A stretch of DNA of 34,252 nt from Prolixibacteraceae bacterium (GTDB lineage: Bacteria; Bacteroidota; Bacteroidia; Bacteroidales; Prolixibacteraceae). Shown here one piece after another: positions 10,212 to 28,321 of this stretch. The DNA is taken from assembly GCA_947475715.1 (NCBI GenBank), contig CANJNY010000042.1, positions 1 through 34,252 on the forward strand. Reading direction: 5' to 3'. Below the pieces are notes generated by a model. That model did not search any database, had not been told where the DNA came from, and saw only the letters and a program-made list of their open reading frames with translations. A program made the translations under genes and the position numbers. The stretch's first letter is position 1. Every line of letters starts with the position of its first letter.

Positions 10212-13103
10212 ATGAGAAAAATTCGTCTTATTCTTGCAGCCTCTCTGCTGGCAGCGATGATCTCTCTTCATGCCCAAACGGCTAAAACCACCTCCGTAAC
10301 ATTCAGAAATGCACCTGTTTTGTTCAAACAGGGTGGAAAAATGGTCCAGCAAATTATCGCTGATATCAAAGCCGACCAACCCGCCGAACTCCTGTTTTCC
10401 GTTTCCGGAGAAAAGGCTCAAAAAGACTCAGTTAAAAAAGGGGATAATCTGCTATTATTAACAGTATCGGCAGTTACTTCGGCAAAAAAGGTTGAGATAC
10501 TTGTTAAAGGTGAAAAAGTTTTGGCCGGAAAATATCCGTTAACGCTAACTCCGGTTAAAAAATGGGAAATTGATTTGGTTCAGCATGCACATACCGACAT
10601 CGGTTATACACGCCCCCAGTCTGAAATCCTTGCCGAACATATGCGCTATATCGACTATGCACTCGATTATTGCGATCAGACAGATCCCCTTCCTGATGCC
10701 GCAAAATTCCGCTGGAGTTGCGAATCATCGTGGGTGACCAGGGAATACCTCCGTTCACGTCCATCGTCCCAAATTGAGCGGTTCAAAAAACGGATTGCTG
10801 AAGGTCGGATTGAAGTCACAGGAATGTATTGCAATATGGCAGAGATTTCGGATGAGAATATTATGGTTGACTTTCTACAACCACTCAAGGAGTTTGGCAA
10901 ACTTGGAATCCCTGTAAAAACTGCCATGCAGAATGATGTCAACGGTATTGCCTGGTGCCTGCCCGATTATTTTAAGAATACAGGGTTAAAATACCTGGAC
11001 ATGGGTATCAATGAAACCCGCTCAATACTTCCATTTGATATACCTACCCTATTCTGGTGGGAAGCACCATCGGGCGCCAGATTGCTCGCTTTCAGGGCAG
11101 ACCATTACATGACCGGGAATTTCTTCGGGATGGAATCCAAAGCGATTAAAGTCGCAAATATGCTCAATCACCTGGCAAAGCTGGATGAAAAGAATTATCC
11201 CTTTGACAAGATAGGGATTCAATTTTCAGGTTATTTTACAGATAACTCACCACCCTCAACCGCTGCATGCCTGTTGGTTAAAAATTGGAATGAAACCCAT
11301 GAATCTCCTAAACTGCGGTTGTCTGTTGTGAGTGAATTTTTCGAATATATTGAAAATAAATATGGCGCCACCCTTCCTGTTTATAAAAATGCCTGGCTTG
11401 ACTGGTGGACTGATGGATATGGATCAACATCACGCGAGACCGCTGAAGTCAGAAAGACCCAGAATATGAAACAGGTTGACGAAGGTCTTTTTGCTATGGT
11501 TTCCATGATGGGTGGAGAACAATCTCCTTCATTGGAAACGAATATGAACCATATCAGTGAAAATGCGATTTTCTTTGATGAACATACCTGTGGCGCCGAC
11601 GAAAGCATCGACCATCCTTATTCCGAAAATTCGACCCGTCAGTGGTTGCAAAAAGGGGCTTATGCCTGGGAAGCGCTGAAAAAGGTTACCTTACTTCATG
11701 AGGAGGGGCTTGCCCGTTTTCAGCAATACCTTAAAAAAGCTGATTTTCCGGTGATCTATGTGATTAACTCTATGGGATGGAATCGTTCAGGTGATATTAA
11801 TTTATTCATTGACAATGAGATTCTTCCAATTTCCCAAAAAACCAGGATAACCGATATTTCAACTGGTAAAGAGGTGCCTGCACAGATGGTATCCAAAAGG
11901 GCAGAGGGAGCTTATTGGGTACTTGAAGTAAAAGATATTCCGGCCCTGGGATATAAGGCTTTAAAGATTGAGTCGGGTGAAACTCAAACGAAGGCTGACA
12001 GTAATACCAACGAAACGGTGCTTGAAAACCGCTTTTATAAGGTTGTTATTAATAAATCAACCGGGGCGGTGAGTAGTCTGTATGATAAAGAATTGAATCA
12101 GGAACTTGCCGATGGACAAAATTTGTATAACATCGGACAACCCGTAAAGGAGACCACAAAGAAACGGGATGAATCGGCACCTTTTATCAGGACAACGGTC
12201 TCGAATGTTAAGCTTGAAAACGGTGTAAACGGTGTGGTATGGGAGAGTGTAAAGATTGGATCCGATCTGGAGGGATTTGAAAAAGGGGATCAGGGCTCAC
12301 CAAAGGGAATTGACCTGGAGATTCGTCTCTATAAAAATGTGAAGAAGATTGAGTTCAAATATATGGCCCGAAAGGTGATCGTCACAGATCCTGAGGCCCT
12401 TTATGTGGCATTCCCGTTCTCAATGCCCGATTCGAGAATCGTTTTTGAGACAATCGGGGGTATATTAACCCAGGGAGAGCAGCTCCCCGGATCTTCCTCT
12501 GATTGGAATGCAGCACAGAACTTTGTCTCGGTGCGCGGAAAAAAAGGACAGGTAGTGATCGTAAGTAATGAAGTGCCGCTATGGCAATTCAGTGATTTCA
12601 ATATGAAGAAGTATGACCGATATCCCAAACAAGGGAAGACGTGGCTCTACTCGTATGTGATGAATAATTACTGGTTTACCAATTTCCGTGCTTTCCAGGA
12701 GGGTGCCTTTAGCTGGAGCTATCAGATTACTTCGACTGCTGATACCACGAATACTTTTGCTACAAAGTATGCCTGGAACGAACGAAATATGTTTCCTACA
12801 AGGACCTTTCCTGCCGGCACCAATGAGTTTAAGACGCCATCAATGGAGACTATTAAGATTTCAGGACCGCCAAATGGAATGCTAATTAACAGTCGCCCAT
12901 CGTTTAAAAATCCACAATCCGTTGTATTACATTTCAGAGAACTGGAAGGAAAAACGGCAGAACTAACCCTTGAATCTAAGATTGCTGGTCGTCCGGTAAA
13001 ACAAATTATTGAGGTAAGTGCAATTGGAAAAGAGTTGGGGAATCCGGTTCAATCCATAAAGCTAAATCCTTTTGAAGTGAAATTTGTGGAGGTTCAGTTT
13101 TAA
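10212..13103 (+). CDS. Atypical GH38 alpha-mannosidase-like enzyme, secreted
   Basis: A 963-residue exported protein (signal peptide 1-21, SLHAQ) with an N-terminal beta-sandwich extension (about 25-115), a GH38 catalytic domain (about 118-470) and C-terminal beta-domains (about 510-960). The zinc-site motif HAHTDIGYT (125-133) gives His127 and Asp129; Asp242 in MQNDVNGIAW takes the place of the nucleophile; FFDEHTCGAD gives His458. The usual DPFGHS nucleophile block is therefore replaced by NDVNG, and the last His lies in an EHTxGA block instead of HHD. All four zinc ligands are still accounted for. It shares this architecture with the gene at 28322. GH92 follows after 62 bp, probably in the same transcript. 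Alpha-mannosidase activity is likely, but the specificity may differ. Confidence 0.8.
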   Translation: MRKIRLILAASLLAAMISLHAQTAKTTSVTFRNAPVLFKQGGKMVQQIIADIKADQPAELLFSVSGEKAQKDSVKKGDNLLLLTVSAVTSAKKVEILVKGEKVLAGKYPLTLTPVKKWEIDLVQHAHTDIGYTRPQSEILAEHMRYIDYALDYCDQTDPLPDAAKFRWSCESSWVTREYLRSRPSSQIERFKKRIAEGRIEVTGMYCNMAEISDENIMVDFLQPLKEFGKLGIPVKTAMQNDVNGIAWCLPDYFKNTGLKYLDMGINETRSILPFDIPTLFWWEAPSGARLLAFRADHYMTGNFFGMESKAIKVANMLNHLAKLDEKNYPFDKIGIQFSGYFTDNSPPSTAACLLVKNWNETHESPKLRLSVVSEFFEYIENKYGATLPVYKNAWLDWWTDGYGSTSRETAEVRKTQNMKQVDEGLFAMVSMMGGEQSPSLETNMNHISENAIFFDEHTCGADESIDHPYSENSTRQWLQKGAYAWEALKKVTLLHEEGLARFQQYLKKADFPVIYVINSMGWNRSGDINLFIDNEILPISQKTRITDISTGKEVPAQMVSKRAEGAYWVLEVKDIPALGYKALKIESGETQTKADSNTNETVLENRFYKVVINKSTGAVSSLYDKELNQELADGQNLYNIGQPVKETTKKRDESAPFIRTTVSNVKLENGVNGVVWESVKIGSDLEGFEKGDQGSPKGIDLEIRLYKNVKKIEFKYMARKVIVTDPEALYVAFPFSMPDSRIVFETIGGILTQGEQLPGSSSDWNAAQNFVSVRGKKGQVVIVSNEVPLWQFSDFNMKKYDRYPKQGKTWLYSYVMNNYWFTNFRAFQEGAFSWSYQITSTADTTNTFATKYAWNERNMFPTRTFPAGTNEFKTPSMETIKISGPPNGMLINSRPSFKNPQSVVLHFRELEGKTAELTLESKIAGRPVKQIIEVSAIGKELGNPVQSIKLNPFEVKFVEVQF

Positions 13104-13165: not shown

Positions 13166-15391
13166 ATGAATCGAATAACGAATATCCTCCTGCTTTTTAT
13201 ACTGTTTCTCAGTGCCTGCACCCAGAAAGATGTTACGGTCTATGTTGACCCAAATATCGGTAGCGTGGCCACCTTATTGACCACTAAAAATCCCACGGTG
13301 CATCGACCCCACTCCATGATTCGGGTGTTTCCGGTTACAAAATCGGGTCTGGGCGACCGTTACCTGAGTGATAAAATCTACGGATTTGCCTTGAATATGC
13401 CCGCCTACCGCATGGGGCATGTTACCGAGATTATGCCAACAACCGGTAAATTAAACTTAAATCGGGACCAAAATGGTGCCCTTTATGACCACGATCAGGA
13501 GGAGGTTCACCCTTACTACCATAGAGTTTGGCTGGAAGATTCAAATATTGAAGCCGATTGGACTACGACTGAACGTGCTGTAATTTATCGTTTTAACTAC
13601 AAAACCAAGGATGCCGATAACTTGATTTTTAGATCTGAAGGGAAAGCTAATTTTAAGGTTACCGGAAATAATGTTGTCCAGGGATGGGAAGAATTTGAAA
13701 AGCGGAAACAATATTTCTATGCTGAATTTAGTCGGCCGTTTGAAAAATCAGGGTCATTTGCACAAGGAAATCTGCAGGATAAAGGTGAAATTTCCGGCGA
13801 TGGAATTGGGGTTTACGTTGGGTATTCTGCTCTTGATCAACCTTTGGAAGTACGTGTTGGCATCTCGCTGATCGACGAAAAACAGGCGGCTGCCAATCTG
13901 AATAAGGAGACTCAGAACCAGAAATTTGAAGCGATTAAAGGTGAGAGTCATAAAATCTGGGCCGCTGAACTTGGTAAAATCCAGGTTAAAGGGGGAAGTG
14001 AACGTGAGAGAAGGATTTTTTACACTTCCCTTTATCGTTGCAACGAACGGATGGTCAATATTTCGGAAGATGGACGTTATTTCAGTGGATATGACGGTAA
14101 GGTACACGATGACGGAGGACGCCCCTTCTTCGTAGACGACTGGCTATGGGATACCTACCGCGGTCTGCATCCTTTAATGTTAATTCTTAATCCTGCCCAG
14201 CAGTCCGACATGGTTGGTTCCTATGTGAGGATGTATGAGCAAGGTGGCTGGATGCCTGGTTTTCCTCAGTTTTACGGTGATTTTCCGGCGATGGTAGGAT
14301 TTCACTCTGCGGCATTGGTTTGGGATTCCTATCAGAAGGGGGCGACCAATTTCGATGTGGAAAAAGCCTATGAAGGGTTAAGGAAAAATGCGACTCAGGC
14401 CACCATGCTTCCCTGGCGTAATGGTCCGATGTGTTCGTTGGACAGCTTTTATACCAAAAACGGGTGGTATCCGGCTTTACCCGAAGATAGTATTGAAACC
14501 GTCTCACGTGTTGATGGTTTTGAAAAACGGCAGGCAGTTACCCTCACCCTGGAGCATAGCTATGACGACTGGTGCCTTGCTCAACTCGCCAAAGCGCTCG
14601 GCAAAAATGAGGATTATACCTATTTTGAAAAGCGGTCTAAGAATTATCGCAATGTCTTTAATCCGGCAACCGGTTTTATGGCACCCAAAATGGCCAATGG
14701 TAAATGGATCGAGCCTTTTGATCCGCAATTGTCCGGTGGCGTTGGAAGCCGTGCCTACTATGCTGAAAACAATGCGTGGACCTGGAATTACAGCGTAACC
14801 CAGGATATTCCCGATCTGATAAACCTTTTAGGTGGAAACAAGGCATTTGTCGAAAGGCTGGATGCCCTGTTTAATGAACCGACACATATTTCCAAATGGC
14901 AGTTTATGGGTAAGTTCCCCGATTCAACGGGTCTTAACGGACAGTTTGTAACCGGCAATGAACCCTCATTTCATATTCCTTACCTGTATAATTATGCAGG
15001 CCAACCCTGGAAAACCCAGCGACGTATCCGCGAAATCATGGATATGTGGTTCGATGATCGTCCGATAGGAATCCCTGGAGACGAGGATGGTGGCGGACTC
15101 TGCGCATGGTATGTCTTTTCTGCCATGGGCTTCTTCCCTGTTACCCCCGGAAGCGGAATTTATGCCATTGGAAGTCCGTTTTTTGAATGTATAAATATAC
15201 AATTGCCGGATAATAAGAAATTTCAGGTTATTGCAGAAAATTGTTCCAAAAAATTCAAATATATCAAATCTGCAACACTCAATGGAAAAGAGCTGAATAC
15301 TCCGTTTATTCGTCATACCGATATTATGCAGGGCGGTAAACTTCATCTGGTGATGAGCGATAAACCGAATAAGGAGTGGGGGAGTAATTAG
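13166..15391 (+). CDS. GH92 alpha-mannosidase, lipoprotein
   Basis: GH92 enzymes are calcium-dependent exo-alpha-mannosidases, many specific for alpha-1,2 linkages. The 741-residue protein starts with a lipoprotein signal (LSAC, Cys18), so it should be membrane-anchored. The N-terminal beta-sandwich (about 22-260) includes VDPNIGS and MGHVTEIMPT; the (alpha/alpha)6 domain has WLWDTYRGLHPL (326-337), GNEPSFHIPYLYNYAGQPW (597-615, Glu599 the expected general acid) and GIPGDEDGGGLCAWYVFSAM (635-654, with the catalytic-base/calcium aspartates). The length agrees with the family. It is paired with the upstream GH38, consistent with trimming of a mannose-containing glycan. Substrate linkage cannot be read from sequence. 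Confidence 0.92.
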   Translation: MNRITNILLLFILFLSACTQKDVTVYVDPNIGSVATLLTTKNPTVHRPHSMIRVFPVTKSGLGDRYLSDKIYGFALNMPAYRMGHVTEIMPTTGKLNLNRDQNGALYDHDQEEVHPYYHRVWLEDSNIEADWTTTERAVIYRFNYKTKDADNLIFRSEGKANFKVTGNNVVQGWEEFEKRKQYFYAEFSRPFEKSGSFAQGNLQDKGEISGDGIGVYVGYSALDQPLEVRVGISLIDEKQAAANLNKETQNQKFEAIKGESHKIWAAELGKIQVKGGSERERRIFYTSLYRCNERMVNISEDGRYFSGYDGKVHDDGGRPFFVDDWLWDTYRGLHPLMLILNPAQQSDMVGSYVRMYEQGGWMPGFPQFYGDFPAMVGFHSAALVWDSYQKGATNFDVEKAYEGLRKNATQATMLPWRNGPMCSLDSFYTKNGWYPALPEDSIETVSRVDGFEKRQAVTLTLEHSYDDWCLAQLAKALGKNEDYTYFEKRSKNYRNVFNPATGFMAPKMANGKWIEPFDPQLSGGVGSRAYYAENNAWTWNYSVTQDIPDLINLLGGNKAFVERLDALFNEPTHISKWQFMGKFPDSTGLNGQFVTGNEPSFHIPYLYNYAGQPWKTQRRIREIMDMWFDDRPIGIPGDEDGGGLCAWYVFSAMGFFPVTPGSGIYAIGSPFFECINIQLPDNKKFQVIAENCSKKFKYIKSATLNGKELNTPFIRHTDIMQGGKLHLVMSDKPNKEWGSN

Positions 15392-15510: not shown

Positions 15511-16752
15511 ATGAACTCACGTGAACGCATTCTTGCTGCCATTAATCACCAACAACCTGACAGGGTTCCAATCGATCTGGGAGCAACACCAAGTTCCGGC
15601 ATTTCAGTGGTTGCCTATCAGAACCTGATCAAATACATGGGGAAGACACATCTCAAAACCTATGCCTATGATGTGATTCAGGAGGTTGCCCAACCCGAAA
15701 TGGAGTTGCTCGATTATTTCAATGTTGATGTGATTGATATTGGAAGACACTTTAATACGGATGAAAATTACTGGAAGGAGATGGAGATCATATCGGGTCA
15801 CAAAGCCCTTTATCCCAATTGGCTCAAGAGCGAACGACTTCCGGATGATTCCAACATTATTTATGGATCAACTGGTGAGATCATTGGCCGAATGCCCGTT
15901 GGAGCAACATTTTTTGATCAGACGATTTTCCCTTACCTCAATGGGTATCCGGATAATTACAACGATCTGGCAAGGGATATGAAACGGGTTATCTGGGGAG
16001 GTGTTGGCTTTACTCCCTGGGACTGGTCCGAGGAAAAGGATTTTTATAAAATCTTACGCGAAAAAACCATCGATCTTAAAAGAAATAGTGATAAAGCTTT
16101 ACTTCTCGGCATTGGATGCAACCTTTTCGAATGGGGCACATTTATCCGCAGAATGGACAATTTTCTCATGGATTTGCTCGCGGATCCGTCCAATGTTCAT
16201 GCATTTCTGGATGCTTTGATGGAAAGTCATATGTCAGCCCTTCAAAAAACAATCGAAGCCGTTGGGGATGTAGTGGATATTATTAAATTTGGCGATGATC
16301 TGGGAATGACTAACGGCCCGTTTATGTCGGTTGAAATGTATCAGGAATTTTTTAAGCCGCGACATAAGCAACTTTGTGATTATGTAAAAAATAATTCCAC
16401 TGCTCATACGATGTTGCATTGCTGTGGAGGAGTTTATGAATTGATTCCTGAATTAATTGAAGCCGGATTTGAAATTCTGAATCCGGTCCAGATTAACGCA
16501 GTGAATATGGAGCCTGAACGGTTAAAAAATGAATTTGGAAAGGATATTGTCTTCTGGGGCGGAGGTTGTGATACAAAAAGTATCCTCAATAATGCCACAC
16601 CGCAGAAGGTAAAGGATCATGTCAAACATAACCTGGAGATATTCAGTGCAGGTGGAGGGTATGTATTTAATACGGTTCATAATATTATGCCGGATGTCCC
16701 TCCGCAGAATATCGTAGCCATGTTTGAGGCTGTAAATGAATTTAATGCTTAA
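15511..16752 (+). CDS. URO-D/MtaA-superfamily protein, first gene of the mannose operon
   Basis: A 413-residue cytoplasmic protein of the uroporphyrinogen decarboxylase fold (COG0407), which also contains the MtaA/MtbA methylcobamide methyltransferases. Landmarks are NSRERILAAINHQQPDRVPID at the N-terminus, GDDLGMTNGPFMS (261-273), MLHCCGG (301-307), FWGGGCDT (348-355) and a GGGYVFNTVHNIMPDVPP C-terminal end. His303/Cys305 with Cys353 could form the H-x-C...C zinc site seen in methyltransferase members, which argues against haem synthesis. It is 34 bp ahead of the GH38 gene and opens the operon running to 23661. Its substrate is unknown; demethylation of a methylated sugar or an unrecognised lyase/aldolase-type role are only hypotheses. 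No corrinoid-protein gene is in the window. Confidence 0.8.
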   Translation: MNSRERILAAINHQQPDRVPIDLGATPSSGISVVAYQNLIKYMGKTHLKTYAYDVIQEVAQPEMELLDYFNVDVIDIGRHFNTDENYWKEMEIISGHKALYPNWLKSERLPDDSNIIYGSTGEIIGRMPVGATFFDQTIFPYLNGYPDNYNDLARDMKRVIWGGVGFTPWDWSEEKDFYKILREKTIDLKRNSDKALLLGIGCNLFEWGTFIRRMDNFLMDLLADPSNVHAFLDALMESHMSALQKTIEAVGDVVDIIKFGDDLGMTNGPFMSVEMYQEFFKPRHKQLCDYVKNNSTAHTMLHCCGGVYELIPELIEAGFEILNPVQINAVNMEPERLKNEFGKDIVFWGGGCDTKSILNNATPQKVKDHVKHNLEIFSAGGGYVFNTVHNIMPDVPPQNIVAMFEAVNEFNA

Positions 16753-16786
16753 ACTAAGATAAAAACGATCAATAACTAAACTGACA

Positions 16787-19456
16787 ATGAAAAGATTTAT
16801 TTTGAAGAATATAGCAGTTATCATGCTGATATTTATGGTGATGCCATTGGTAGTAGCTGCCAAAGGGAGTAGTGCAGATGCTGCATCAAAAGATACCGTT
16901 CATGTTGTAGGTCATGCCCATATGGATATGAACTGGCTCTGGACCTATTCCGAAACAATGAAGATGGCCAACGATAATCTCCGCCAAACGGTTGCTTTTA
17001 TGGATGAGTTTCCCGATTTTACGATGATCCAAAGTCAGGCCTCGGTTTATAATTTTGTTGAGAAGGTTGACCCTCCGTTGTTTGAACTGGTGAAAAAATA
17101 TGTAAGGGCGGGAAGGCTTGAATTAGGGGGCGGGATGTGGACCGAAGGGGATGTAAATCTTTCTTCCGGTGAGGCGATTGGCCGCTCATTTCTTTTGGGA
17201 CAGCGATATTTTCAAAATCATTTTGGCAAAATGGCGCATGTAGGTTGGTTGCCTGATAATTTTGGTCATATTTCACAAATGCCTCAGATTCTGAAACAGG
17301 CAGGTTGTGAATATTTTTATTTCCATCGTACCAAACCTTTTAAAGGTTCATTCTGGTGGATCGGAAGCGATTCTACCAAGGTATTGTGTTATGCCAATGA
17401 TGGTTATAATGGGGATATTAAACCAGACCTTAAAGACGAATTCAAAAAAATCACCCCAGACAAACACCGTTTACTGCAAATTACCGGCGTAGGAGACCAT
17501 GGTGGTGGTCCGACCCGTGCAAATATTGATATGGTCCATCAACTCGATAAAACACCCGGCTATCCGGCCGTTAAATTTACCTCTGCGGGAACATTTTTTG
17601 ACAAAATTTCTAAAGAGATGGAGGGGAGACCAACCCATCGCGGCGAAATGCAATTTATCTTCGAAGGGTGTTACACCAATGTATCCGATATTAAAGAGGG
17701 GAACAGGAACTGTGAGAACATGCTTTACAGCAGCGAATTTTTCAATTCTCTTCGGTGGCTGAACGGAGATAAATATCCGGATGCTGAACTTCGCGACCTT
17801 TGGACAACGGTAGCTTTTAACCAGTTTCATGACATTCTTCCAGGCTCTGCAATCAATGAAGCTAACAAGGAGGCAGTAGCCCGTTATGCCGACGTTCTGC
17901 GTAAATCAACCGATCTGCGCGACAATGCATTTCGTAAAATGGCCGATGAGGTGAATTTTAAAACCGGCATGGGACAACCTATTGTGGCATATAATCTCCA
18001 TCCTTCTACCCGAAAAACCATTATTGAGGCAAGTGTCTATTCCCATACTGAACCTGTAACCGTTAAGGTAAACAGTTGGGGCGATTTCTATGGTTCCAAA
18101 AATATTAAACCCATCGATAAGGGACAGGGAAAAGTGGCAACGGTGTTGGTTCGCGATGGTTCTGGCAAAAGCTATCCCGCTCAGATTGTCTGGGCAAAGG
18201 TTACCCCTCCGGGATTTACCTCAAAAGTGCAATTCATTGTAGATGATCTTCCTGCAGGTGGTTATAAAACCTTTTATGTAGATGTGACTAAACCCGGAGA
18301 GTACAATGAACCGATTTCATTTAAAGATAAAACCTTTGAAACCGATTTTTTCACGATTAAAATTGATATGAAAACCGGTGGCATAGTAAGTCTGTATGAT
18401 AAGCGTACAAAGACCGAATGTGTAAAAAAAGGGGGTCAGCTTAATACCCTTCGGATGTTTCAGGAGGATAAAAAAGGGGGAATGAAGTCCTGGGTATTGA
18501 ATAAAAATATGAAAATCGAGGATGTTAAAAATATAGTAAGTGTTAAAGTTGTCGAAGATGGACCTGTCAGAGCCTGTATCGAAACGGTAAAGACCTGGGG
18601 AAAATCAAGATTCATAGAACGGGCTTATATCTATCGTTCTTATCCACGTATCACCTACGACATGGAGGTGCATTGGCTGGAGACCGGATCAGATTCAACC
18701 AACTCTCCGATGTTACGTGCCGTATTCCCGCTTGCAATTCAAAAATCGGGCTTTTATTGCCAGGTCCCTTTTGACATTGTTGAAAGACCGGCTGATGGAT
18801 TAATTGCCGGAAAGCCCATTGCCGAATCGCTCAAGCATCGCAACGACTATGGAATTATCTCAGAACCTAATGATGGACAGGAAGTTCCTGCTCAGAAATG
18901 GGTTGATGTAAATGACGGAAAAACGGGTATTGCCCTTCTGAATAAAACCAAATATGGCCATTCCTTTGAAAAGGGAGAATTGAGAATCACCCTGATGAGA
19001 TCTGCCGGTGACCCCGATATTTATCCTAATCTTGGTAAATTCAACATTAGCTATGCCCTTTATCCTCACGCTGCAGATTGGAAAAACGACGTCTGGGCCG
19101 AAGGAGATGATTTTAATGTCCCGGTTTATGCCGCTGAACCCCCTTCACTGGCACTGGTTAAAGCTCATGCAACACGCCCCGAAGAGGCCTCGTTTTTCTC
19201 CGTTTTACCTTCAAATGTAATTATGAGTGGTGTAAAACAGTCGGAGGAAGGGGATGAACTTATCGTTCGGTTGGTTGAAATTACGGGAAAAGAAGCCTCA
19301 ACAACTGTTATGCTTCCTTTCGCTGCAAAATCGGTGCGCAGGCTTAATATCCTTGAGTTTCCTATGGAAAATACACAAGCCCCTGAAATTCAAGGGACGA
19401 AAGTCAATATTAAATTAAAACCACACGAAATAATTACACTTGGTATAAAGCAATAA
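16787..19456 (+). CDS. GH38 alpha-mannosidase, canonical, secreted
   Basis: An 889-residue retaining, zinc-dependent alpha-mannosidase. The signal peptide covers about 1-25. The catalytic domain shows HAHMDMNWLW (43-52; zinc His45, Asp47), the nucleophile block WLPDNFGHISQMPQIL (154-169, Asp157) and FNQFHDILPG (344-353, zinc His348). The C-terminal beta-rich GH38 domains follow from about 500. Compared with the two other GH38-like proteins here, it lacks an N-terminal beta-sandwich and keeps a classical D-x-FGHS-type block. It sits between a URO-D gene (34 bp) and a DUF4432 gene (5 bp), so it is the only exported enzyme in an otherwise cytoplasmic operon and presumably supplies mannose to it. 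Confidence 0.9.
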   Translation: MKRFILKNIAVIMLIFMVMPLVVAAKGSSADAASKDTVHVVGHAHMDMNWLWTYSETMKMANDNLRQTVAFMDEFPDFTMIQSQASVYNFVEKVDPPLFELVKKYVRAGRLELGGGMWTEGDVNLSSGEAIGRSFLLGQRYFQNHFGKMAHVGWLPDNFGHISQMPQILKQAGCEYFYFHRTKPFKGSFWWIGSDSTKVLCYANDGYNGDIKPDLKDEFKKITPDKHRLLQITGVGDHGGGPTRANIDMVHQLDKTPGYPAVKFTSAGTFFDKISKEMEGRPTHRGEMQFIFEGCYTNVSDIKEGNRNCENMLYSSEFFNSLRWLNGDKYPDAELRDLWTTVAFNQFHDILPGSAINEANKEAVARYADVLRKSTDLRDNAFRKMADEVNFKTGMGQPIVAYNLHPSTRKTIIEASVYSHTEPVTVKVNSWGDFYGSKNIKPIDKGQGKVATVLVRDGSGKSYPAQIVWAKVTPPGFTSKVQFIVDDLPAGGYKTFYVDVTKPGEYNEPISFKDKTFETDFFTIKIDMKTGGIVSLYDKRTKTECVKKGGQLNTLRMFQEDKKGGMKSWVLNKNMKIEDVKNIVSVKVVEDGPVRACIETVKTWGKSRFIERAYIYRSYPRITYDMEVHWLETGSDSTNSPMLRAVFPLAIQKSGFYCQVPFDIVERPADGLIAGKPIAESLKHRNDYGIISEPNDGQEVPAQKWVDVNDGKTGIALLNKTKYGHSFEKGELRITLMRSAGDPDIYPNLGKFNISYALYPHAADWKNDVWAEGDDFNVPVYAAEPPSLALVKAHATRPEEASFFSVLPSNVIMSGVKQSEEGDELIVRLVEITGKEASTTVMLPFAAKSVRRLNILEFPMENTQAPEIQGTKVNIKLKPHEIITLGIKQ

Positions 19457-19461
19457 AATTT

Positions 19462-20523
19462 ATGACAGCAAAAAATGTGAATAAAAGGGAGATGCTCCGT
19501 TATGTCGGGGATGTTAGTCAACTATTTGGAATTAAGGAATATGTCCTTGTTGATGGAAAAGCCAAAGGGGTGAGGGCTTTTGATGTAAAAAACGGTTCCG
19601 GCCTTGAGTTTACAATTCTGGCTGATCGCTGCCTTGATATTGCCGGATTATCGTTCAACGGAATTAACTGCAGTTATATCACCAAAGCAGGTATTGTTGC
19701 CCCTGAATATTATGATGATAATGGTATCGGGTTTCTGCGCAGTTATTTGGCCGGTTTTCTCACCACTTGTGGGTTGCGTAATGTTGGCTCACCATGCGAA
19801 GAAAACGGAGAGTATTTTCCGCTTCACGGAAGAATGGGCAACACCCCTGCGGAACAGGTAAATGCTTCAACCGAATGGATTGATGACGTTCCTACCCTTA
19901 CAATCAGCGGGCAAATGCGTGAGGCACGGCTTTTTGGCGAGAACCTTGTTCTGAGTAGAAAAATCATCTCAAAATATGGCGAAAATAAAATAATCCTTAA
20001 AAATTCCATTGAAAATCTGGGTTTTAAACGTGAGGAACTGAATCTGCTGTTTCACTTTAACATGGGTTATCCGCTTTTAGATGCCGATTCAATTCTGGTC
20101 ACTCCAACGGCAAAACTTATTCCGAGGGATCAGGAGGCAATCAACGGTGCTGCACTATCGGGCGAATGCCAGTCGCCAACTCCAGATTATGCAGAACAGG
20201 TGTTCTATCATGATTTAAATTCAGATCAGGATGGTAATACCTGTGTGGCCCTGATTAATAAACGACTTGAAATAGGTGTTGTTCTGAATTACAGTAAAAA
20301 CGAACTCTTCAATTTTGCACAGTGGAAGCAAATGGGAGAAGGGGATTATGTAATGGGAATGGAACCTTGTAATTGTTTCGTCGGCGGTCGCATCGATCCC
20401 CGAAATGCAGATGTAAAGGAGTATCTCGAACCGGGTGAAATCCGAAATATTGATCTGACCATTGAACTTCTCAATGGAATGGAGCAGATTAATGCGATGA
20501 TCCGAAAAATAAAGGAATTATAA
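19462..20523 (+). CDS. DUF4432 aldose-1-epimerase-like protein
   Basis: A 353-residue cytoplasmic protein of the DUF4432 family, a branch of the galactose mutarotase-like fold. Landmarks: ILADRCLDIAGLSFNG (about 52-67), FLTTCGLRNVGSP (about 99-111), FPLHGRMGNTPAEQV (118-132) and a C-terminal MGMEPCNCFVGGR (about 294-306). Family members are found in sugar operons and are thought to handle sugar anomers or related epimerisation, but the reaction is not settled. The ATG is 5 bp after the GH38 stop, so it is cotranscribed. In this operon it could interconvert anomers of mannose or fructose before isomerisation or phosphorylation (inference). Confidence 0.82.
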   Translation: MTAKNVNKREMLRYVGDVSQLFGIKEYVLVDGKAKGVRAFDVKNGSGLEFTILADRCLDIAGLSFNGINCSYITKAGIVAPEYYDDNGIGFLRSYLAGFLTTCGLRNVGSPCEENGEYFPLHGRMGNTPAEQVNASTEWIDDVPTLTISGQMREARLFGENLVLSRKIISKYGENKIILKNSIENLGFKREELNLLFHFNMGYPLLDADSILVTPTAKLIPRDQEAINGAALSGECQSPTPDYAEQVFYHDLNSDQDGNTCVALINKRLEIGVVLNYSKNELFNFAQWKQMGEGDYVMGMEPCNCFVGGRIDPRNADVKEYLEPGEIRNIDLTIELLNGMEQINAMIRKIKEL

Positions 20524-20590
20524 TAACCTTAAGTAGATTTCTAATTGCAGATATAAAATGCATTTAATTAAATTATAAAATAACAACCAT

Positions 20591-21265
20591 ATGAAGCGCA
20601 GCGAAATAAACAAGATCCTGTTGGATGCAAAGGTATTTATGGCCGAAAAACAATTTATCTTACCTCCATGGGCGTACTGGAGTGTTGAGGATTGGAAAGA
20701 AAATAAGGAAAGTGCTCACGAAGTTATTGAAAATATGCTTGGCTGGGATATTACCGACTTTGGGTCAGGTGATTTCTATAAAAGAGGCCTGTTTTTGTTC
20801 ACCATCCGCAATGGGAAATTGAATGTCGATAAGAAGCCCTATGCCGAGAAAATCATGATTGTGGAGGAAAATCAGGAAACACCCATGCATTTTCACTGGG
20901 CTAAAATGGAAGATATCATCAATCGTGGCGGAGGTAACCTGGTTATTGATTTATACCAGTCGGATAAAGAAGAGGATTTTTCTGACCTCCCGTTCAGTGT
21001 AAAAACTGACGGAATTGTGCGTCACATGCAACCCGGCGACTCGGTAATACTAAACCCTGGTGAAAGTATTTGCCTTGAACAGGGAATTTATCATCGCTTT
21101 TATGGGGAGCCCGGAAAAGGAAAGGTGCTTGTGGGAGAGGTGAGCAGCGTAAACGATGATTCATCCGATAACCGCTTCCACGAAACAATTGGACGTTTTC
21201 CTGTAATCGAAGAGGATGAGCAGCCGATCCATTTAATGGCCTCCGATTATAAGAAATTTTTGTAG
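20591..21265 (+). CDS. D-lyxose/D-mannose isomerase
   Basis: A 224-residue cupin-fold ketol-isomerase. Family members convert D-lyxose to D-xylulose and D-mannose to D-fructose with a divalent metal. The sequence is strongly family-like: MKRSEIN, NMLGWDITDFGSGDF (48-62), KPYAEKIMIVEE, TPMHFHWAKMEDIINRGGGN (97-116), GIYHRFYGEPGKG and VGEVSSVNDDSSDNRF. His100, His102, Glu107 and His168 are the probable metal ligands or active-site residues. The start is the ATG at 20591, 67 bp after DUF4432. In an operon with alpha-mannosidase and sugar kinase, mannose-to-fructose isomerisation is the likely physiological role. Confidence 0.88.
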   Translation: MKRSEINKILLDAKVFMAEKQFILPPWAYWSVEDWKENKESAHEVIENMLGWDITDFGSGDFYKRGLFLFTIRNGKLNVDKKPYAEKIMIVEENQETPMHFHWAKMEDIINRGGGNLVIDLYQSDKEEDFSDLPFSVKTDGIVRHMQPGDSVILNPGESICLEQGIYHRFYGEPGKGKVLVGEVSSVNDDSSDNRFHETIGRFPVIEEDEQPIHLMASDYKKFL

Positions 21266-21268
21266 GCG

Positions 21269-22471
21269 ATGAGCAAAAAAATTATTGTGGCTGGTACCGG
21301 ATGTGCACTTGCTGATTATTTGTATACCGGAGTTCGTTTTAATTCTCCTGTTTTTGAAAAATACCTCTCGCACAATGCCGGGGATGGTGGTCTTGCTCCC
21401 GGAAGACTCGTTTTCACAGAAGAACTCGAGAAATTCTCAGGTGTTTCGTATGCTGAAATAAGCAGTGAACTAACAGGTGGCGAATCACCTGAGGCAGTAA
21501 ATATTGGCGGACCGGGGTTGGTTTCATTGATTAATGCAGCACAGCTGCTTCCTCAGGAAGATTTTGAAGTGCACTTTTACGGTGGAACAGGAAAGGATGA
21601 AACTGCTGATTTTATTGAAAAACTGGTGCGGAAAACACCTCTGAACATCGATCATTACCATCGGATTTCCGAAAAGCGAACTCCGTTTACCGATGTGCTT
21701 TCTGATTCTACCTACGATAACAATCATGGAGAGCGGACATTTATTAATAACATTGGTGCTGCATGGGATTATACCCCTGACCTGCTTGGGGACGATTTTT
21801 TCAACGCGGATATCGTCTGTTTTGGTGGAACGGCACTTGTTCCACGGATACACGATAATCTCACAAGCTTGCTGTCCCGGGCTAAAGAAAGTGGCTGTAT
21901 AACAGTGGTTAATACCGTTTTTGATTTTAGGAATGAGAAATTAAATCCGGGGAAACCCTGGCCGCTTGTTGAAACTCCGGAGGATTATAAACTCATTGAT
22001 TTACTGATCATGGATTGTGAAGAATCACTCAAAATCAGCGGTCAAAAAACGATTGATGAAGCTGCCCAATATTTTGTAGATCTCGATGTTTCAACATTGG
22101 TGATCACAAACGGGGCTCAGCACTTCTACATCTTCTCGAACGGGAAATTATTTGAAAAATCAGAATTGAAAAAGCTTCCGGTTTCTCAAAAGGTGAACGA
22201 AGATTTTAAACACAACCCCTCTTCCAAAGGGGATACCACAGGTTGCGGCGATAACTTTGCCGGGGGAATCATCACCTCAGTGGCACATCAGTTAAAAACC
22301 GGGATAATTGGAGAATTTAATTTGACCGAAGCGATTGCCTGGGGTGTAGCCTCAGGAGGCTTTGCCTGTTATTATATTGGAGGGACCTATATTGAACGGG
22401 AACCACGTGAGAAATATACAATTCTGGAAATATTTAAACTTCAGTACCTAATGCAAATTTCTACGAGGTGA
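21269..22471 (+). CDS. PfkB-family sugar kinase
   Basis: A 400-residue ribokinase-fold ATP-dependent kinase. It shows an N-terminal nucleotide-sugar fold start (KKIIVAGTGCALADYLY), a substrate-side NIGGPGLVSLINAAQLL (78-94) and GGTGKD (105-110), and the ATP/anion-hole motif GDTTGCGDNFAGG (321-333) with Asp328 as catalytic base. It is longer than a typical fructokinase because of an insert around residues 23-75. The ATG is 3 bp after the isomerase stop and its TGA overlaps the GTG start of the next gene, so translation is coupled. Phosphorylation of fructose made by the isomerase is the simplest reading; the substrate cannot be proven from sequence. Confidence 0.88.
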   Translation: MSKKIIVAGTGCALADYLYTGVRFNSPVFEKYLSHNAGDGGLAPGRLVFTEELEKFSGVSYAEISSELTGGESPEAVNIGGPGLVSLINAAQLLPQEDFEVHFYGGTGKDETADFIEKLVRKTPLNIDHYHRISEKRTPFTDVLSDSTYDNNHGERTFINNIGAAWDYTPDLLGDDFFNADIVCFGGTALVPRIHDNLTSLLSRAKESGCITVVNTVFDFRNEKLNPGKPWPLVETPEDYKLIDLLIMDCEESLKISGQKTIDEAAQYFVDLDVSTLVITNGAQHFYIFSNGKLFEKSELKKLPVSQKVNEDFKHNPSSKGDTTGCGDNFAGGIITSVAHQLKTGIIGEFNLTEAIAWGVASGGFACYYIGGTYIEREPREKYTILEIFKLQYLMQISTR

Positions 22472-23661
22472 TTAATGATTCCGAAAATAAATTAGTCCTT
22501 TTCGGAGCGGGTAAAATTGGCCGCTCATTCATCGGTCAGCTCTTTAGCAAAGGTGGCTATGAAGTTGTTTTTATTGACGTTTTTAAACCTGTAATCGACG
22601 AATTAAATAGTCGTCACAGCTATCGAGTGGTGGTTAAAGACGAAGTTGAATCGGTTATTCTGGTAAATAATGTCAGGGGTGTTTTTGGCGGTGACGAGGA
22701 TCAGGTGATCCGCGAAATTGCAACCGCGCGAATTGTTGCTGTGTCGGTTGGGTTGCACGGCTTAAAGGCAATCATGCATTTGATCGCCAAAGGTTTGGTG
22801 GCACGATATGAAGTGCCGGATGCAGCACCACTGGATATAATCATCGCCGAGAATCTAAGGAATGCCGCTGAATTTATCCATGAGGAGCTTAAAACACATT
22901 TACCCGAAGGATATCTTTTGAATGAACGGGTGGGGCTGATTGAAACAAGTATCGGCAAAATGGTTCCGATCATGCTGAAAAAAGAGATGGAGGCTGATAT
23001 TCTGCAGGTTTTTGCGGAGCCTTACAATACACTGATCCTCGATAAGCTGGCATTTAAGAATCTGATTCCGCAGATCGAGGGGCTTGCTCCCAAGGAGAAT
23101 ATGAAGGCGTGGGTAGACCGAAAACTGTTTATCCACAATCTGGGTCATGCGGCTACGGCTTATTTTGGTTTTATTGCCCATCCGGAGTCCACCTTTTTAT
23201 ATGAAGTTTTATCTGGTCAATCGATAAAAGATAAGGTTCGCCAAACCATGCTTCAGGCAGCGGCTATCTTGCTGGCAAAGTACCCTGATGAATTTACGAT
23301 GGAGGCACTTATTGATCATACCGATGATCTGATCCGCAGGTTTCAAAACAAAGCCTTGGGAGATACAGTTTTCCGTGTTGGGTGTGATTTGCAGCGTAAA
23401 CTTGGAAAAGAGGACCGGATGGCCGGAGCAATCCATCTGGCGCGTGAATTGCACCTCCCGTATGATTTGATTTTACAGGCTTTGGTTGCGGGATTTCACT
23501 TCAGGGCTAAAGATGAAGCAGGCAATCTTTTGCCTGCTGACATGGAATTTGCGGCTATTTATGCTAAAGGTATAACGGAGGTGATGACCACTGTTTGTGG
23601 ATTTGAGGAAAACAGAGATGATGAAGTGATTAAGGAAGCAATTATACTTGATAAAATATGA
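22468..23661 (+). CDS. Mannitol-1-phosphate 5-dehydrogenase-like protein
   Basis: A 397-residue NAD-dependent polyol dehydrogenase of the mannitol dehydrogenase superfamily; the length matches the mannitol-1-phosphate type and not the longer mannitol 2-dehydrogenases. The Rossmann motif is FGAGKIGRSFIG (12-23); the catalytic signature is DRKLFIHNLGHAATAYFG (217-234) with Lys219, Asn224 and His227. It starts with GTG in a GTGA overlap with the kinase gene. It could interconvert fructose-6-phosphate and mannitol-1-phosphate, giving mannitol as a sink or source in the mannose/fructose route (inference). Its end may mark an insertion boundary: a 26-codon open stretch follows in another frame. Confidence 0.87.
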   Translation: MINDSENKLVLFGAGKIGRSFIGQLFSKGGYEVVFIDVFKPVIDELNSRHSYRVVVKDEVESVILVNNVRGVFGGDEDQVIREIATARIVAVSVGLHGLKAIMHLIAKGLVARYEVPDAAPLDIIIAENLRNAAEFIHEELKTHLPEGYLLNERVGLIETSIGKMVPIMLKKEMEADILQVFAEPYNTLILDKLAFKNLIPQIEGLAPKENMKAWVDRKLFIHNLGHAATAYFGFIAHPESTFLYEVLSGQSIKDKVRQTMLQAAAILLAKYPDEFTMEALIDHTDDLIRRFQNKALGDTVFRVGCDLQRKLGKEDRMAGAIHLARELHLPYDLILQALVAGFHFRAKDEAGNLLPADMEFAAIYAKGITEVMTTVCGFEENRDDEVIKEAIILDKI

Positions 23662-23740: not shown

Positions 23741-24643
23741 ATGAACGCGCAGCAAAAAATATCCATCCGTTTTTTTGACGACCGCGAAGTGCGGGCAATC
23801 TGGGACGAGCAAAACGCCAAGTGGTGGTTTTCGGTGCTGGATATAGTAGCCGTTCTTACCAATCAAAACGACTATACGAAAACCCGAAACTATTGGAAAT
23901 ACCTAAAAGCCAGGTTAAAGAAAGAAAATAGTGAAGTGGGTAGTGCCACTACCCAGTTGGTTAGTATAACTACCCAACTGAAATTGCTTGCCCCTGATGG
24001 TAAAAGGCGTTTGTCAGATATGCTTGATTACAAAGGAATTATTGCATTGGGCAAACAGTTTCCGGGCAAAAAGGCAAACCGATTTATTGAATGGTTTACC
24101 TTTAGTGATGAAAGCATCGACGGAAAAAGCAAAACAAAGGCTTATGCACTGTTTGAAAGTAGCTTGATCGACAGCATAGAGGTCGGCACAACTAATGGGT
24201 TAAAGCAAATTCACGCTTACTTGTTTGGTGGCTTGTATGATTTTGCCGGGCAAATCAGACAAAAAAACATTTCGAAAGGCGGTTTCCAATTTGCAGTTTC
24301 ACAATTCCTTGGTGCCACATTAAAACAAATAGAACAAATGCCCGAAAATACCTTTGATGAAATTGTTGAAAAATATGTTGAAATGAACATTGCTCACCCA
24401 TTTATGGAAGGCAACGGCAGAACCACCCGAATATGGCTGGATTTGATATTGAAAAAACGGCTGAAAAAATGCGTGGATTGGAGCAAAATAAGCAAAACAG
24501 ATTATATGAACGCAATGGTAAAGAGTGCCGTAAACAGCAGCACCCTAAACGAGTTGCTGAAAAATGCCCTTACCGACCAAATAAACAGCAGGGAAATGTA
24601 TATGAAAGGAATTGATTACTCTTATTATTATGAGGAAAATTAA
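23741..24643 (+). CDS. Bro-N/Fic fusion protein, probable AMP-transferase
   Basis: A 300-residue protein joining a Bro-N-like, antirepressor-type DNA-binding domain (about 5-120: [62 protein letters not shown]) to a Fic domain (about 130-300). The Fic active-site loop [12 protein letters not shown] (219-230) is complete, with His219 as expected catalyst. The C-terminus ends SYYYEEN, which resembles the C-terminal inhibitory (S/T)xxxE(G/N) helix of class III Fic proteins such as NmFic, so it may be self-inhibited. Inside Bro-N, TTQL is duplicated (residues 68-80, [13 protein letters not shown]), and the DNA there has two inverted repeats (23939-23953, 23954-23980). It is accessory in the glycan locus; a stress or phage-defence toxin is plausible. 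Confidence 0.85.
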
Positions 24644-24670: not shown

Positions 24671-26854
24671 ATGAAAAAAATCGGACTTACCCTATTTCTT
24701 CTCGTTGTTTGGATTGGCTTGCATGCCCAGGCCAAATCAGGCAAATCTGTCACTTCTGTTCCATTCAAAAATTACTGGACTAAGGCTCCTGAGCGGACAC
24801 CAAGCGATTTTTCTGTTGATGCACCATTGATGGGAAACGGCGATCTTACAATGAGCGTCGGTTTTCAGGATAATCGTCTTCGGTTTTATCTCTCCAAGAA
24901 TGATTTCTGGCGGCTTAGATCTCAGGCCGATGGGTTGTCAGGTCCGCGGGTGGTCGGATTTGTTGACCTGGAAATTGACGGGTTTACGAATGCCGGTTTT
25001 ACTGCCGTACAACTTATTAAAAATGGGATAACTACCTGTCAACTTAAGAAAGGGGAACAAAGTATCGAATCAAGATCTTGGGTTTCGGCTACCGGAAACC
25101 TGATTTTTATTGAAGTAAATTCACCTGATAAAGACGCAAAGATTACCGTAAGTCTAACAGCCCCGCAAAACAGGCAGGCCATTCTAAAAACAGGAAATAA
25201 AAATGATTTATTCTGGCTCACGAGAGCTTTTACCGATAGCGTTGATATTCCGACAGAGGTCGCGGTAGCCTTGAAGATGTTTAATTACAAGGGTGAAACG
25301 ATAACGATTCAACCGGGTAAAAAACTCAGAATGGCCTTAGCAGTCGAAAGCAAATTCAAAAAAACCGATCCGCTGGGATATGTGCAGAAACGGTTAACTG
25401 CTTTTAATTCAAATTCAGAAGCGGAATTACTTAAAGAACACAATCAATGGTGGCAGAATTATTGGAACAGGTCATCTGTTACAATTGAAGATACTGTTTT
25501 GATGAAGTCGTGGTACCAGGGGCTTTATACCATGGCTGCATGCAGTGGTGATCCGAAATTTCCTCCGGGATTATTTGGCTGGACAACCAATGACACCCCT
25601 GCCTGGAATGGGGATTATCACCTGAATTATAATTTTCAGGCCCCATTTTATAGCCTTTGTTCGAGCAACCACCTGGAACAGATTGAACCTCATGATCAAC
25701 CTTTACTTGATTTTATGCCGCGCGGTGAATATTATGGCAAAAATGCAACCAAAACCCGTGGAATTATGTACCCGGTTGGGATTGGCCCATTGGGTATTGA
25801 GGTAACCCGCAACTTTGCCGTCGGTGGTTATCAGACGAATGACGATATCGAATTTGAAGGATTGTTTTATGGTCAACGCTCAAATGCAGCCTATGGATTG
25901 ATCAACATGGCCCAACAATGGCGTTGCACCTACGATATTGAATACGGTAAAAAGATTTATCCCTATGCTTTAGCCGTTGCCAGTTTTTGGGAGGACTACC
26001 TGAAATTTGAAAATGGGCGGTATGTAATTTATGGGGATGCCATTCACGAGGGGTCGGGAAAGGACAAGAATCCCGTTTTGTCACTGGGACTGATCCGCAA
26101 TGCACTTGATCTGATGATTGATCTTAGTTCAGCCTTGAAAAGAGATGAAGAGAGGCAACCAAAATGGAGAGATATTCTGGCTAAACTGAGTGAATTTCCT
26201 ATTCAACAGCGAAACGGTCGGGATGTATTTCGATATAGCGAAGAGGGTGTCGACTGGGTTGACGGGAACGGTCTGGGGATTCAGCAAATATTTCCCTGTA
26301 ATGCCATCACCCCCGACAGCAAACCTGAATTGTTGGCAGTGGCACGTAATACAATCGATGTGATGCAACGGTGGCACGACCAAAACACCAGTAATAGTTT
26401 TTTTGCTGCTGCGATAAGGGTCGGATACGATTCTTCGGTCGTGTTAAAGGAGTTGCATAAATATTCATTACATACTTTCCCGAATGGTTTTCAGCTTGAC
26501 AATCCCCATGGTATCGAAAATAGTTGCACGGTAACCAATGCAATAAACGAGATGTTTTGCATGAGCGTGGCCAATGTAATCCGCATTTTCAGCCATTTCC
26601 CAAATAATCAAAAGGGAAGCTTTAATAATATCCGGACTTGGGGGGGCTTTCTCGTTTCTGCGCGTATTACAAACGGAGTTATTTCGAATGTGCTTCTTTT
26701 AAGCGAAAAGGGAAAACTTTGTACTATGGTAAATCCCTGGCCCGGTAAAAAGATAATTTTAGTGAGAAACAGTAAACCTGGTGAAGTAGTTTATGGCGAC
26801 AGAATAACTTTTAAAACATCAGTCAACGAAAAAATTGAATTGAAATCAGAATAA
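24671..26854 (+). CDS. GH95-like glycoside hydrolase, secreted
   Basis: A 727-residue exported protein (signal peptide 1-20, GLHAQ) with the GH95-type layout: N-terminal beta-sandwich (about 40-250, with MGNGDLTMSVGF in place of the family's GNGxLGAMVfG), an (alpha/alpha)6 barrel, and a C-terminal beta region with ISNVLLLSEKGKLCTMVNPW. GH95 uses two Asn residues, a Glu and an Asp: here NDTPAWNGDYHLNYNFQAPF gives Asn319/Asn321, DAIHEGSG gives Glu460, and FPNGFQLDNPHG gives Asp610 as likely equivalents. Similarity is moderate, so alpha-L-fucosidase or alpha-galactosidase activity (both known in GH95) is uncertain. It lies 27 bp after the Fic gene and 90 bp before the GH29 fucosidase. Confidence 0.65.
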   Translation: MKKIGLTLFLLVVWIGLHAQAKSGKSVTSVPFKNYWTKAPERTPSDFSVDAPLMGNGDLTMSVGFQDNRLRFYLSKNDFWRLRSQADGLSGPRVVGFVDLEIDGFTNAGFTAVQLIKNGITTCQLKKGEQSIESRSWVSATGNLIFIEVNSPDKDAKITVSLTAPQNRQAILKTGNKNDLFWLTRAFTDSVDIPTEVAVALKMFNYKGETITIQPGKKLRMALAVESKFKKTDPLGYVQKRLTAFNSNSEAELLKEHNQWWQNYWNRSSVTIEDTVLMKSWYQGLYTMAACSGDPKFPPGLFGWTTNDTPAWNGDYHLNYNFQAPFYSLCSSNHLEQIEPHDQPLLDFMPRGEYYGKNATKTRGIMYPVGIGPLGIEVTRNFAVGGYQTNDDIEFEGLFYGQRSNAAYGLINMAQQWRCTYDIEYGKKIYPYALAVASFWEDYLKFENGRYVIYGDAIHEGSGKDKNPVLSLGLIRNALDLMIDLSSALKRDEERQPKWRDILAKLSEFPIQQRNGRDVFRYSEEGVDWVDGNGLGIQQIFPCNAITPDSKPELLAVARNTIDVMQRWHDQNTSNSFFAAAIRVGYDSSVVLKELHKYSLHTFPNGFQLDNPHGIENSCTVTNAINEMFCMSVANVIRIFSHFPNNQKGSFNNIRTWGGFLVSARITNGVISNVLLLSEKGKLCTMVNPWPGKKIILVRNSKPGEVVYGDRITFKTSVNEKIELKSE

Positions 26855-28243: not shown

Positions 28244-28321
28244 GCCTGAGAATTATATCCTAATCTTTTTATTTTCACTAATTAAAACTTCGAACCAATC
28301 ATAATTAATTTGATATTTCCA

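Follow-up and report, generated by a model that had tools for sequence, protein, structure and literature searches.

A conserved mannose-linked gene cluster in Bacteroidota with a candidate corrinoid-dependent sugar O-demethylase

We describe a gene cluster of a Prolixibacteraceae bacterium in which alpha-mannosidases and genes for mannose catabolism are linked to a long protein of the URO-D superfamily, here called UROD1. The stretch analysed (the window) comprises 34,252 nucleotides and is one whole contig (CANJNY010000042.1) of a 315-contig draft genome (GCA_947475715.1) that is 98.94% complete. Homology and gene context suggest, with a probability that we put at about one half, that UROD1 is an oxygen-independent O-demethylase for methylated mannose, coupled to a route from mannose via fructose to fructose phosphate. 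The conserved and functionally coherent cluster probably encodes an undescribed demethylating mannose pathway, the novelty of which would lie in the sugar demethylase.

The core consists of six open reading frames (ORFs) on the forward strand, with gaps of 34, 5, 67 and 3 bp followed by a 4-bp overlap: UROD1, a GH38 alpha-mannosidase (GH38b), a DUF4432 protein, a D-lyxose/D-mannose-type isomerase, a PfkB-family kinase and an MtlD-like dehydrogenase. ORF families were named by Pfam profiles, and all six genes score above the curated cut-offs. On ORFs, families, gaps and overlap, ORF calls and Pfam agree with an earlier reading of this DNA (the sequence-only reading), which had set conserved co-occurrence of the six families as a check. 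Such conservation is found: the same order occurs in seven of 41 related loci, and parts of the set lie in the directon of UROD1 elsewhere in other orders.

Homologs were searched in 61 genomes (our own and 60 relatives) at E <= 1e-60, a cut that takes in a fucose-type group too, and UROD1-type proteins occur in 19 of them. A scan of named genomes, using two retrieval motifs of which one contains H-x-C, yielded 78 loci. The resulting tree has 91 rows of long URO-D proteins (69 of the 78 scanned loci, the window and further loci); it was made with a quick method, came with a long-branch warning and is midpoint-rooted. L132, L135, L137, L139, L148, L149, L153, L154 and L158 were dropped (gene cut, shorter than 330 aa or missed in ORF picking), among which L135 and L137 (71% and 68% identical) would sit near the mannose clade. 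Some records occur twice among the loci, each time with a different handle (G026:C50 and L096 are one example, and G064 is that genome again), and the mannose clade in the tree uses the locus-scan copies.

The clade that holds UROD1 (SH-aLRT 100) has 41 members, all long URO-D proteins and, by record title, from Bacteroidota. Mannose markers within 9 kb, meaning either the label 'trio' (at least one of the isomerase, PfkB and MtlD genes) or GH38/GH92, accompany 35 of the 41 clade rows against 6 of the 50 rows outside, and five of these six are paralogs beside a UROD1. Inside the clade a trio gene is present in 23 rows, GH38 or GH92 alone in 12 and neither in 6; outside, the counts are 1 for the trio, 5 for GH38/GH92 alone, 18 for GH29 and 26 for other neighbours. 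These labels rely on the window's own genes as markers, other mannosidases falling under 'other', and many loci end at contig ends, which makes gene absences soft. On the tree the trio label requires 10 changes, where shuffling gives a mean of 21.6 (none of 500 shuffles as low). The gene association is more than chance.

The linkage is not bound to one gene order. The same directon as UROD1 holds PfkB in 19 of the 41 loci, the isomerase in 16, GH38a (a further alpha-mannosidase of the window) in 16, GH38b in 15, MtlD in 15, GH92 in 14, DUF4432 in 11 and UROD2 (a short URO-D protein of the window) in 5; isomerase and PfkB are adjacent in 16 loci, PfkB and MtlD in 14. The full six-gene order is present in the window and in L084, L085, L086, L087, L088 and L089 (with one small extra ORF in L085 and L087). 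Tangfeifania (L096) has the order isomerase-PfkB-MtlD-UROD1-GH38, a Tannerella metagenome-assembled genome (MAG; L134) UROD1-?-isomerase-PfkB-MtlD, and at some further loci UROD1 stands last in the row; in an Alistipes MAG (L115) it is a ROK kinase that adjoins UROD1 instead. Linkage of UROD1 to mannose genes in several gene orders argues for a joint function. We therefore regard it as very improbable that UROD1 is a passenger without a role in the mannose pathway: its neighbour varies and 6 of the 41 clade rows lack any mannose marker tested, but the several gene orders and the sugar-associated subclades speak against a mere passenger.

One of these subclades concerns fucose. In a related group with 56-60% identity, a GH29 fucosidase is found in 9 of the 11 rows of that branch, and the UROD1 paralogs L055-L063 have GH29 in 8 of 9 loci (all but L055). 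L056, the sole GH29-type locus scanned, also carries a RhaT-type transporter and an AraC-type regulator. This fucosidase-linked branch indicates that the URO-D type follows the sugar. As a separate observation, a C_GCAxxG_C_C redox-active protein follows UROD1 at L116:10271-10720, and members of that protein's cluster are found near UROD1 in L100, L104, L113, L116 and L130.

UROD1 can be set apart from the named members of its superfamily. It is not a uroporphyrinogen decarboxylase HemE (40.1 bits against the NCBIfam hemE cut-off of 302.95), and Pfam URO-D matches a separate gene of the genome, on C57, with 334.5 bits; nor is it an MtaA/CmuA member (58.9 bits against the mtaA_cmuA cut-off of 235.4). 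Its AlphaFold model (pLDDT 95.7) has the URO-D superfamily fold, with MtaA (4ay8/4ay7) as nearest solved fold, then UroD and then methionine synthase MetE; weak matches to L-rhamnose isomerase appear at rank 36 and lower. The profile alignment places H303-x-C305 of UROD1 over the HIC of MtaA; in the two HemE chains displayed, both residues are absent from that place. We assume a zinc ligand set of His, Cys and a second Cys for MtaA-type enzymes, and by analogy take C353 of UROD1 to be the likely third metal ligand.

According to PMC10418091 (excerpt), O-, S- and halogen-demethylases all belong to the superfamily. UROD1 shares it with the corrinoid O-demethylases MtoB, MtvB, OdmB and VdmB and with the chloromethane demethylase CdmB, and the proposed role, a methyltransferase I working with a corrinoid protein, is common to both. 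So is the long form: the methoxy-aromatic O-demethylases MtoB1/2 measure 47-48 kDa (PMC8630106, excerpt), the CdmB chain 429 aa and UROD1 413 aa. UROD1 also has a weak profile match to CdmB (9rui, E 1.5e-4). These enzymes act on aromatic methoxy groups or halomethanes and have corrinoid genes in their cluster; UROD1, in contrast, lies in a mannosidase and mannose-catabolism cluster with the corrinoid gene usually elsewhere. The methylcobalamin:coenzyme M methyltransferases MtaA and MtbA and the MtaA-like (Mlp) proteins resemble UROD1 in fold and in the aligned H-x-C, but UROD1 is far under the family cut-offs and the third metal-site Cys is not kept throughout.

It might be argued that UROD1 is corrinoid-linked but works on the acceptor side, moving the methyl group from methyl-corrinoid to a thiol like MtaA, in methyl-sulfur metabolism. 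The MtaA-like fold and H-x-C would fit, as would the type 1 mlp clusters with MtaA-like proteins proposed for methyl-sulfur/selenide metabolism in the excerpted text of PMC10418091. We consider this rather unlikely given the low mtaA_cmuA score and the frequent replacement of the third Cys; it offers no obvious reason for the linkage to mannose genes, and in L069 and L071, whose gene rows include a long URO-D, a homocysteine methyltransferase and an MtaA-like URO-D of the short type are already present as further genes.

A corrinoid-dependent O-demethylase calls for partner proteins at the genome level. As stand-alone corrinoid proteins we counted open frames 200-270 aa long that carry a B12-binding_2 match, picked by eye (a 293-aa frame in G058, a genome without UROD1, is thus excluded). 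Such a protein is found in 17 of the 19 genomes with UROD1-type genes and in 13 of the 42 without (Fisher p 2e-5). Among genomes at least 90% complete the ratio is 15 of 15 (own genome included) against 11 of 36, and per genus 9 of 9 against 12 of 35 (p 4e-4). The corrinoid activase RACo shows a similar distribution (14 of 19 against 4 of 42, p 1e-6). Our own genome has one stand-alone corrinoid protein, on C84, in a row (L162:8000-12861) with an MtaB-like protein (413.4 of 720 bits), a CobW-type GTPase and the RACo activase; its two other B12-binding_2 matches are one of MetH size and one in a 303-aa frame with a start that, judged by eye, resembles a MerR-type regulator. A methyl-acceptor enzyme is encoded as well: on C113, a long URO-D paralog shares a row with a homocysteine S-methyltransferase, a Gfo/Idh oxidoreductase and an MtaA-like URO-D, and the Met_synt_B12 match there is weak (28.2 bits against a cut-off of 25). 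On its own, the C84 row in a Bacteroidota genome points to a possible use of methanol or methyl groups.

The strongest link between UROD1 and a corrinoid protein is a Bacteroidales locus (L128 with its continuation L188), where UROD1-GH38-GH38-UROD2 and a reversed UROD1 paralog are followed by a corrinoid protein and another GH38. In four genomes of the UROD1 clade (G061, G063, G067 and G070) the corrinoid protein adjoins a pterin-binding methyltransferase and an MTHFR/MetV-type protein, likely a route to tetrahydrofolate. In two further loci a corrinoid protein shares a row with a long URO-D that is more distant from UROD1. The row of L069 (G006, same genus) resembles that on C113 and also has GH120 and FKBP proteins, a homocysteine methyltransferase, an MtaA-like URO-D and a Met_synt_B12 match; that of L150 (Caldilineae) also has FGGY and GHMP kinases, a short URO-D and a xylose-isomerase-like protein. 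A pair of long and short URO-D recurs in the window, L069, L071 and L150, and a UROD2 homolog with 71-78% identity stands beside UROD1 in eight loci (L093, L094, L107, L110, L112, L128, L135 and L137). Given this recurrent pairing, UROD2 is probably part of the system. A Tannerella row (L190:1348-7684) additionally combines a long URO-D, Gfo/Idh, a 3-keto-disaccharide hydrolase and Met_synt_B12-type, corrinoid and MtaB-like proteins.

The corrinoid evidence also speaks for O-methylated mannose as the substrate, at which the sequence-only reading had hinted. UROD1 could instead act on an unmethylated mannose-derived compound, by decarboxylation, isomerisation or C-C bond chemistry, with no methyl role. 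We hold this to be unlikely: the superfamily includes decarboxylases, the window is without a corrinoid gene and the L-rhamnose isomerase folds match weakly, but the genome-level co-occurrence, the corrinoid gene of L128/L188, the paralog rows with methyl-transfer genes and the MtaA-like H-x-C point the other way.

A number of observations weigh against UROD1 as an O-demethylase of methylated mannose. No corrinoid gene is present in the window, and among the fetched flanks of the UROD1 clade one was found in L128 alone. The sole stand-alone corrinoid protein of our own genome adjoins the MtaB-like gene, and a stand-alone tetrahydrofolate methyltransferase yields no match there at E <= 1e-15. 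Two genomes with UROD1-type genes gave no stand-alone corrinoid protein (G002 and G017, 82% and 78% complete), and among 15 genomes reached through loci it was found in 11 and not in G066, G069, G072 and G074. A strict need for RACo can be dismissed, as it was not found in the near-complete G026, G033 and G042. The co-occurrence could reflect a shared anaerobic glycan-eating life or kinship, both of which the p values ignore. The trio label is clustered on the tree yet has been gained or lost repeatedly. Finally, H303-x-C305 is present in 46 of 46 aligned homologs, an invariance inflated by the H-x-C in one retrieval motif, and C353 is Cys in 26 of the 46 only. This partial retention fits the split of O-demethylases into some with zinc and some without (PMC13222342, excerpt).

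The sugar arm is formed by the remaining core genes. The nearest solved chains to GH38b are Ams1-type alpha-mannosidases; its N-terminus resembles a signal peptide, as judged by eye. DUF4432 matches the 'hypothetical aldose 1-epimerase' 3ty1 in the Protein Data Bank (PDB; E 1.7e-28) and is a probable mutarotase. The isomerase, the only Lyx_isomer match in the genome, matches D-lyxose isomerase (PDB 3kmh, E 1.9e-61), and the MtlD-like protein matches PDB 3h2z (E 2e-55); in L099 an MFS transporter lies between DUF4432 and the isomerase. Since isomerase (281.5 against 350 bits), kinase (27.2 against 450 bits for fructokinase) and dehydrogenase (227.7 against 356 bits for mannitol-1-phosphate 5-dehydrogenase) all remain below their NCBIfam equivalog cut-offs, we infer their substrates. 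Their motifs, which we take to be catalytic, are kept among sequences more than 40% identical to those of the window (window included): the isomerase metal site in 18 of 19 (the sole miss being a 101-aa fragment), G[AC]GD in 21 of 21 kinases and KxxxxNxGH in 17 of 17 dehydrogenases. The mannose/lyxose-type isomerase beside a PfkB kinase and an MtlD-like dehydrogenase is thereby borne out. This cannot be said of the suggestion that the route takes the place of ManA: the genome has one match to the PMI_typeI catalytic domain (ManA-type), with no match to the PMI C-terminal model PF01238, and the isomerase route may thus add to the usual route, not replace it.

Whether the three enzymes serve mannose can be questioned: D-lyxose and D-mannose both figure in the name of the isomerase family, kinase and dehydrogenase are below all equivalog cut-offs, and MtlD-type enzymes are also able to oxidise mannitol phosphate. 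That they serve another sugar (mannitol, or D-lyxose on the way to xylulose) nevertheless appears quite unlikely to us: GH38/GH92 alpha-mannosidases are frequent company, mannose isomerisation yields fructose, and the MtlD reaction has fructose phosphate as its keto partner.

The one-directional cluster exceeds the six genes (Table 1). GH38a and GH92 lie directly upstream, and Fic, GH95-like, GH29, GH38c and UROD2 genes follow downstream on the same strand. The six-gene operon of the sequence-only reading is therefore a real, conserved and mannose-linked gene set, but drawn too narrowly; its borders are arbitrary. In the relatives L084-L086 GH95 comes directly after MtlD without a Fic gene at that place, so that the Fic gene of the window looks like an insert. 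Neither promoter-like matches (41, shuffled mean 42.1) nor terminator-like matches (19, shuffled mean 20.4) exceed the shuffles. Further upstream we observe a GH59 gene (galactocerebrosidase family, 6992-8923) with all three Pfam domains and with homologs upstream in L085-L087, and a 184-aa frame (9329-9883) in which the HipA N-terminal coupling domain alone is matched, possibly the remnant of a HipA gene.

Table 1. Genes of the mannose-linked cluster in the window, with the basis of their assignment.
Feature	Position	Strand	Basis or remark
GH38 alpha-mannosidase a	10212-13103	+	Pfam GH38N/C
GH92 alpha-mannosidase	13166-15391	+	Pfam GH92
UROD1, long URO-D-superfamily protein, 413 aa, candidate corrinoid-dependent O-demethylase of methylated mannose	15511-16752	+	Pfam URO-D 96.6 bits
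GH38 alpha-mannosidase b, 889 aa	16787-19456	+	Pfam GH38 N/mid/C domains
DUF4432, 353 aa, aldose-1-epimerase-like	19462-20523	+	Pfam 305.7 bits
D-lyxose/D-mannose-type isomerase, 224 aa	20591-21265	+	Pfam Lyx_isomer 329.2 bits
PfkB-family sugar kinase, 400 aa, proposed fructokinase	21269-22471	+	Pfam PfkB 78 bits
MtlD-like polyol-phosphate dehydrogenase, 397 aa, GTG start	22468-23661	+	Pfam Mannitol_dh N+C
Fic protein, weak BRO-N match	23741-24643	+	Between MtlD-like gene and GH95-like gene
GH95-like fucosidase-family protein	24671-26854	+	Pfam GH95 catalytic domain 72.9 bits
GH29 alpha-L-fucosidase	26945-28243	+	Pfam 275.7 bits
GH38 family protein c	28310-31255	+	Pfam
UROD2, short URO-D protein, about 351 aa	31509-32564	+	Pfam URO-D 58.4 bits; HSC motif

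A route from D-mannose by isomerase and fructokinase exists elsewhere. The window set shares with it the isomerase and the PfkB kinase, but is tied to URO-D, DUF4432 and an MtlD-like dehydrogenase, and the specificity of its kinase is putative. In the open-licence PMC literature we found no on-point paper on mannose isomerase with fructokinase, nothing on point for URO-D with lyxose isomerase and no report of corrinoid or anaerobic demethylation of sugars. The sugar demethylation that we did find is a monooxygenase route: in marine Flavobacteriia a cytochrome P450 demethylates 6-O-methyl-galactose (PMC10033563, excerpt). Like the route proposed for UROD1 it takes an O-methyl group off an algal sugar, but unlike it the reaction yields formaldehyde (same excerpt). 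No P450 match is present in our genome, and we therefore reject P450 demethylation for it.

Methylated mannose of the Chlorella type is our proposal for the natural substrate. In Chlorella vulgaris, oligomannosidic N-glycans end in 3-O-methyl and 3,6-di-O-methyl mannose, and this methylation made them resistant to jack bean mannosidase (PMC6344472, excerpt); further Chlorella samples contain 2-, 3- and 4-O-methyl mannose (PMC7383745, excerpt). The cluster would attack a fucosylated glycan with partial O-methylation, free its mannose and consume it. Exported GH38 and GH92 enzymes would release mannose and O-methyl-mannose; conversion of mannose to fructose would follow in the cytosol through the isomerase and the DUF4432 mutarotase. 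The PfkB kinase would turn fructose into fructose phosphate, which the MtlD-like enzyme might connect to mannitol phosphate as a storage or redox side branch. UROD1 would be a sugar-specific methyltransferase I that takes the O-methyl group from methyl-mannose, or from this sugar after isomerisation or phosphorylation, and passes it to the Co(I) of a corrinoid protein whose gene lies elsewhere in the genome. From there the methyl group may pass to homocysteine (in this genus) or to tetrahydrofolate (in some other UROD1 genomes). UROD2 may be a partner in the same transfer or act on a second methylated sugar.

More tentatively, and at somewhat less than even odds, anaerobic Bacteroidota and some other phyla may possess a family of long URO-D sugar O-demethylases, in which every member would be specific for a single sugar (such as mannose or fucose), lie in the degradation locus of that sugar and feed a few corrinoid proteins common to all. 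If true, P450 demethylation of methoxy sugars would have a counterpart that needs no oxygen, which would explain how methyl-capped algal glycans are consumed in anoxic waters and guts. The corrinoid route would open O-methylated algal glycans to anoxic bacteria, return their methyl groups to methionine or to one-carbon metabolism, and give a function to many proteins in sugar gene clusters that are now named uroporphyrinogen decarboxylase.

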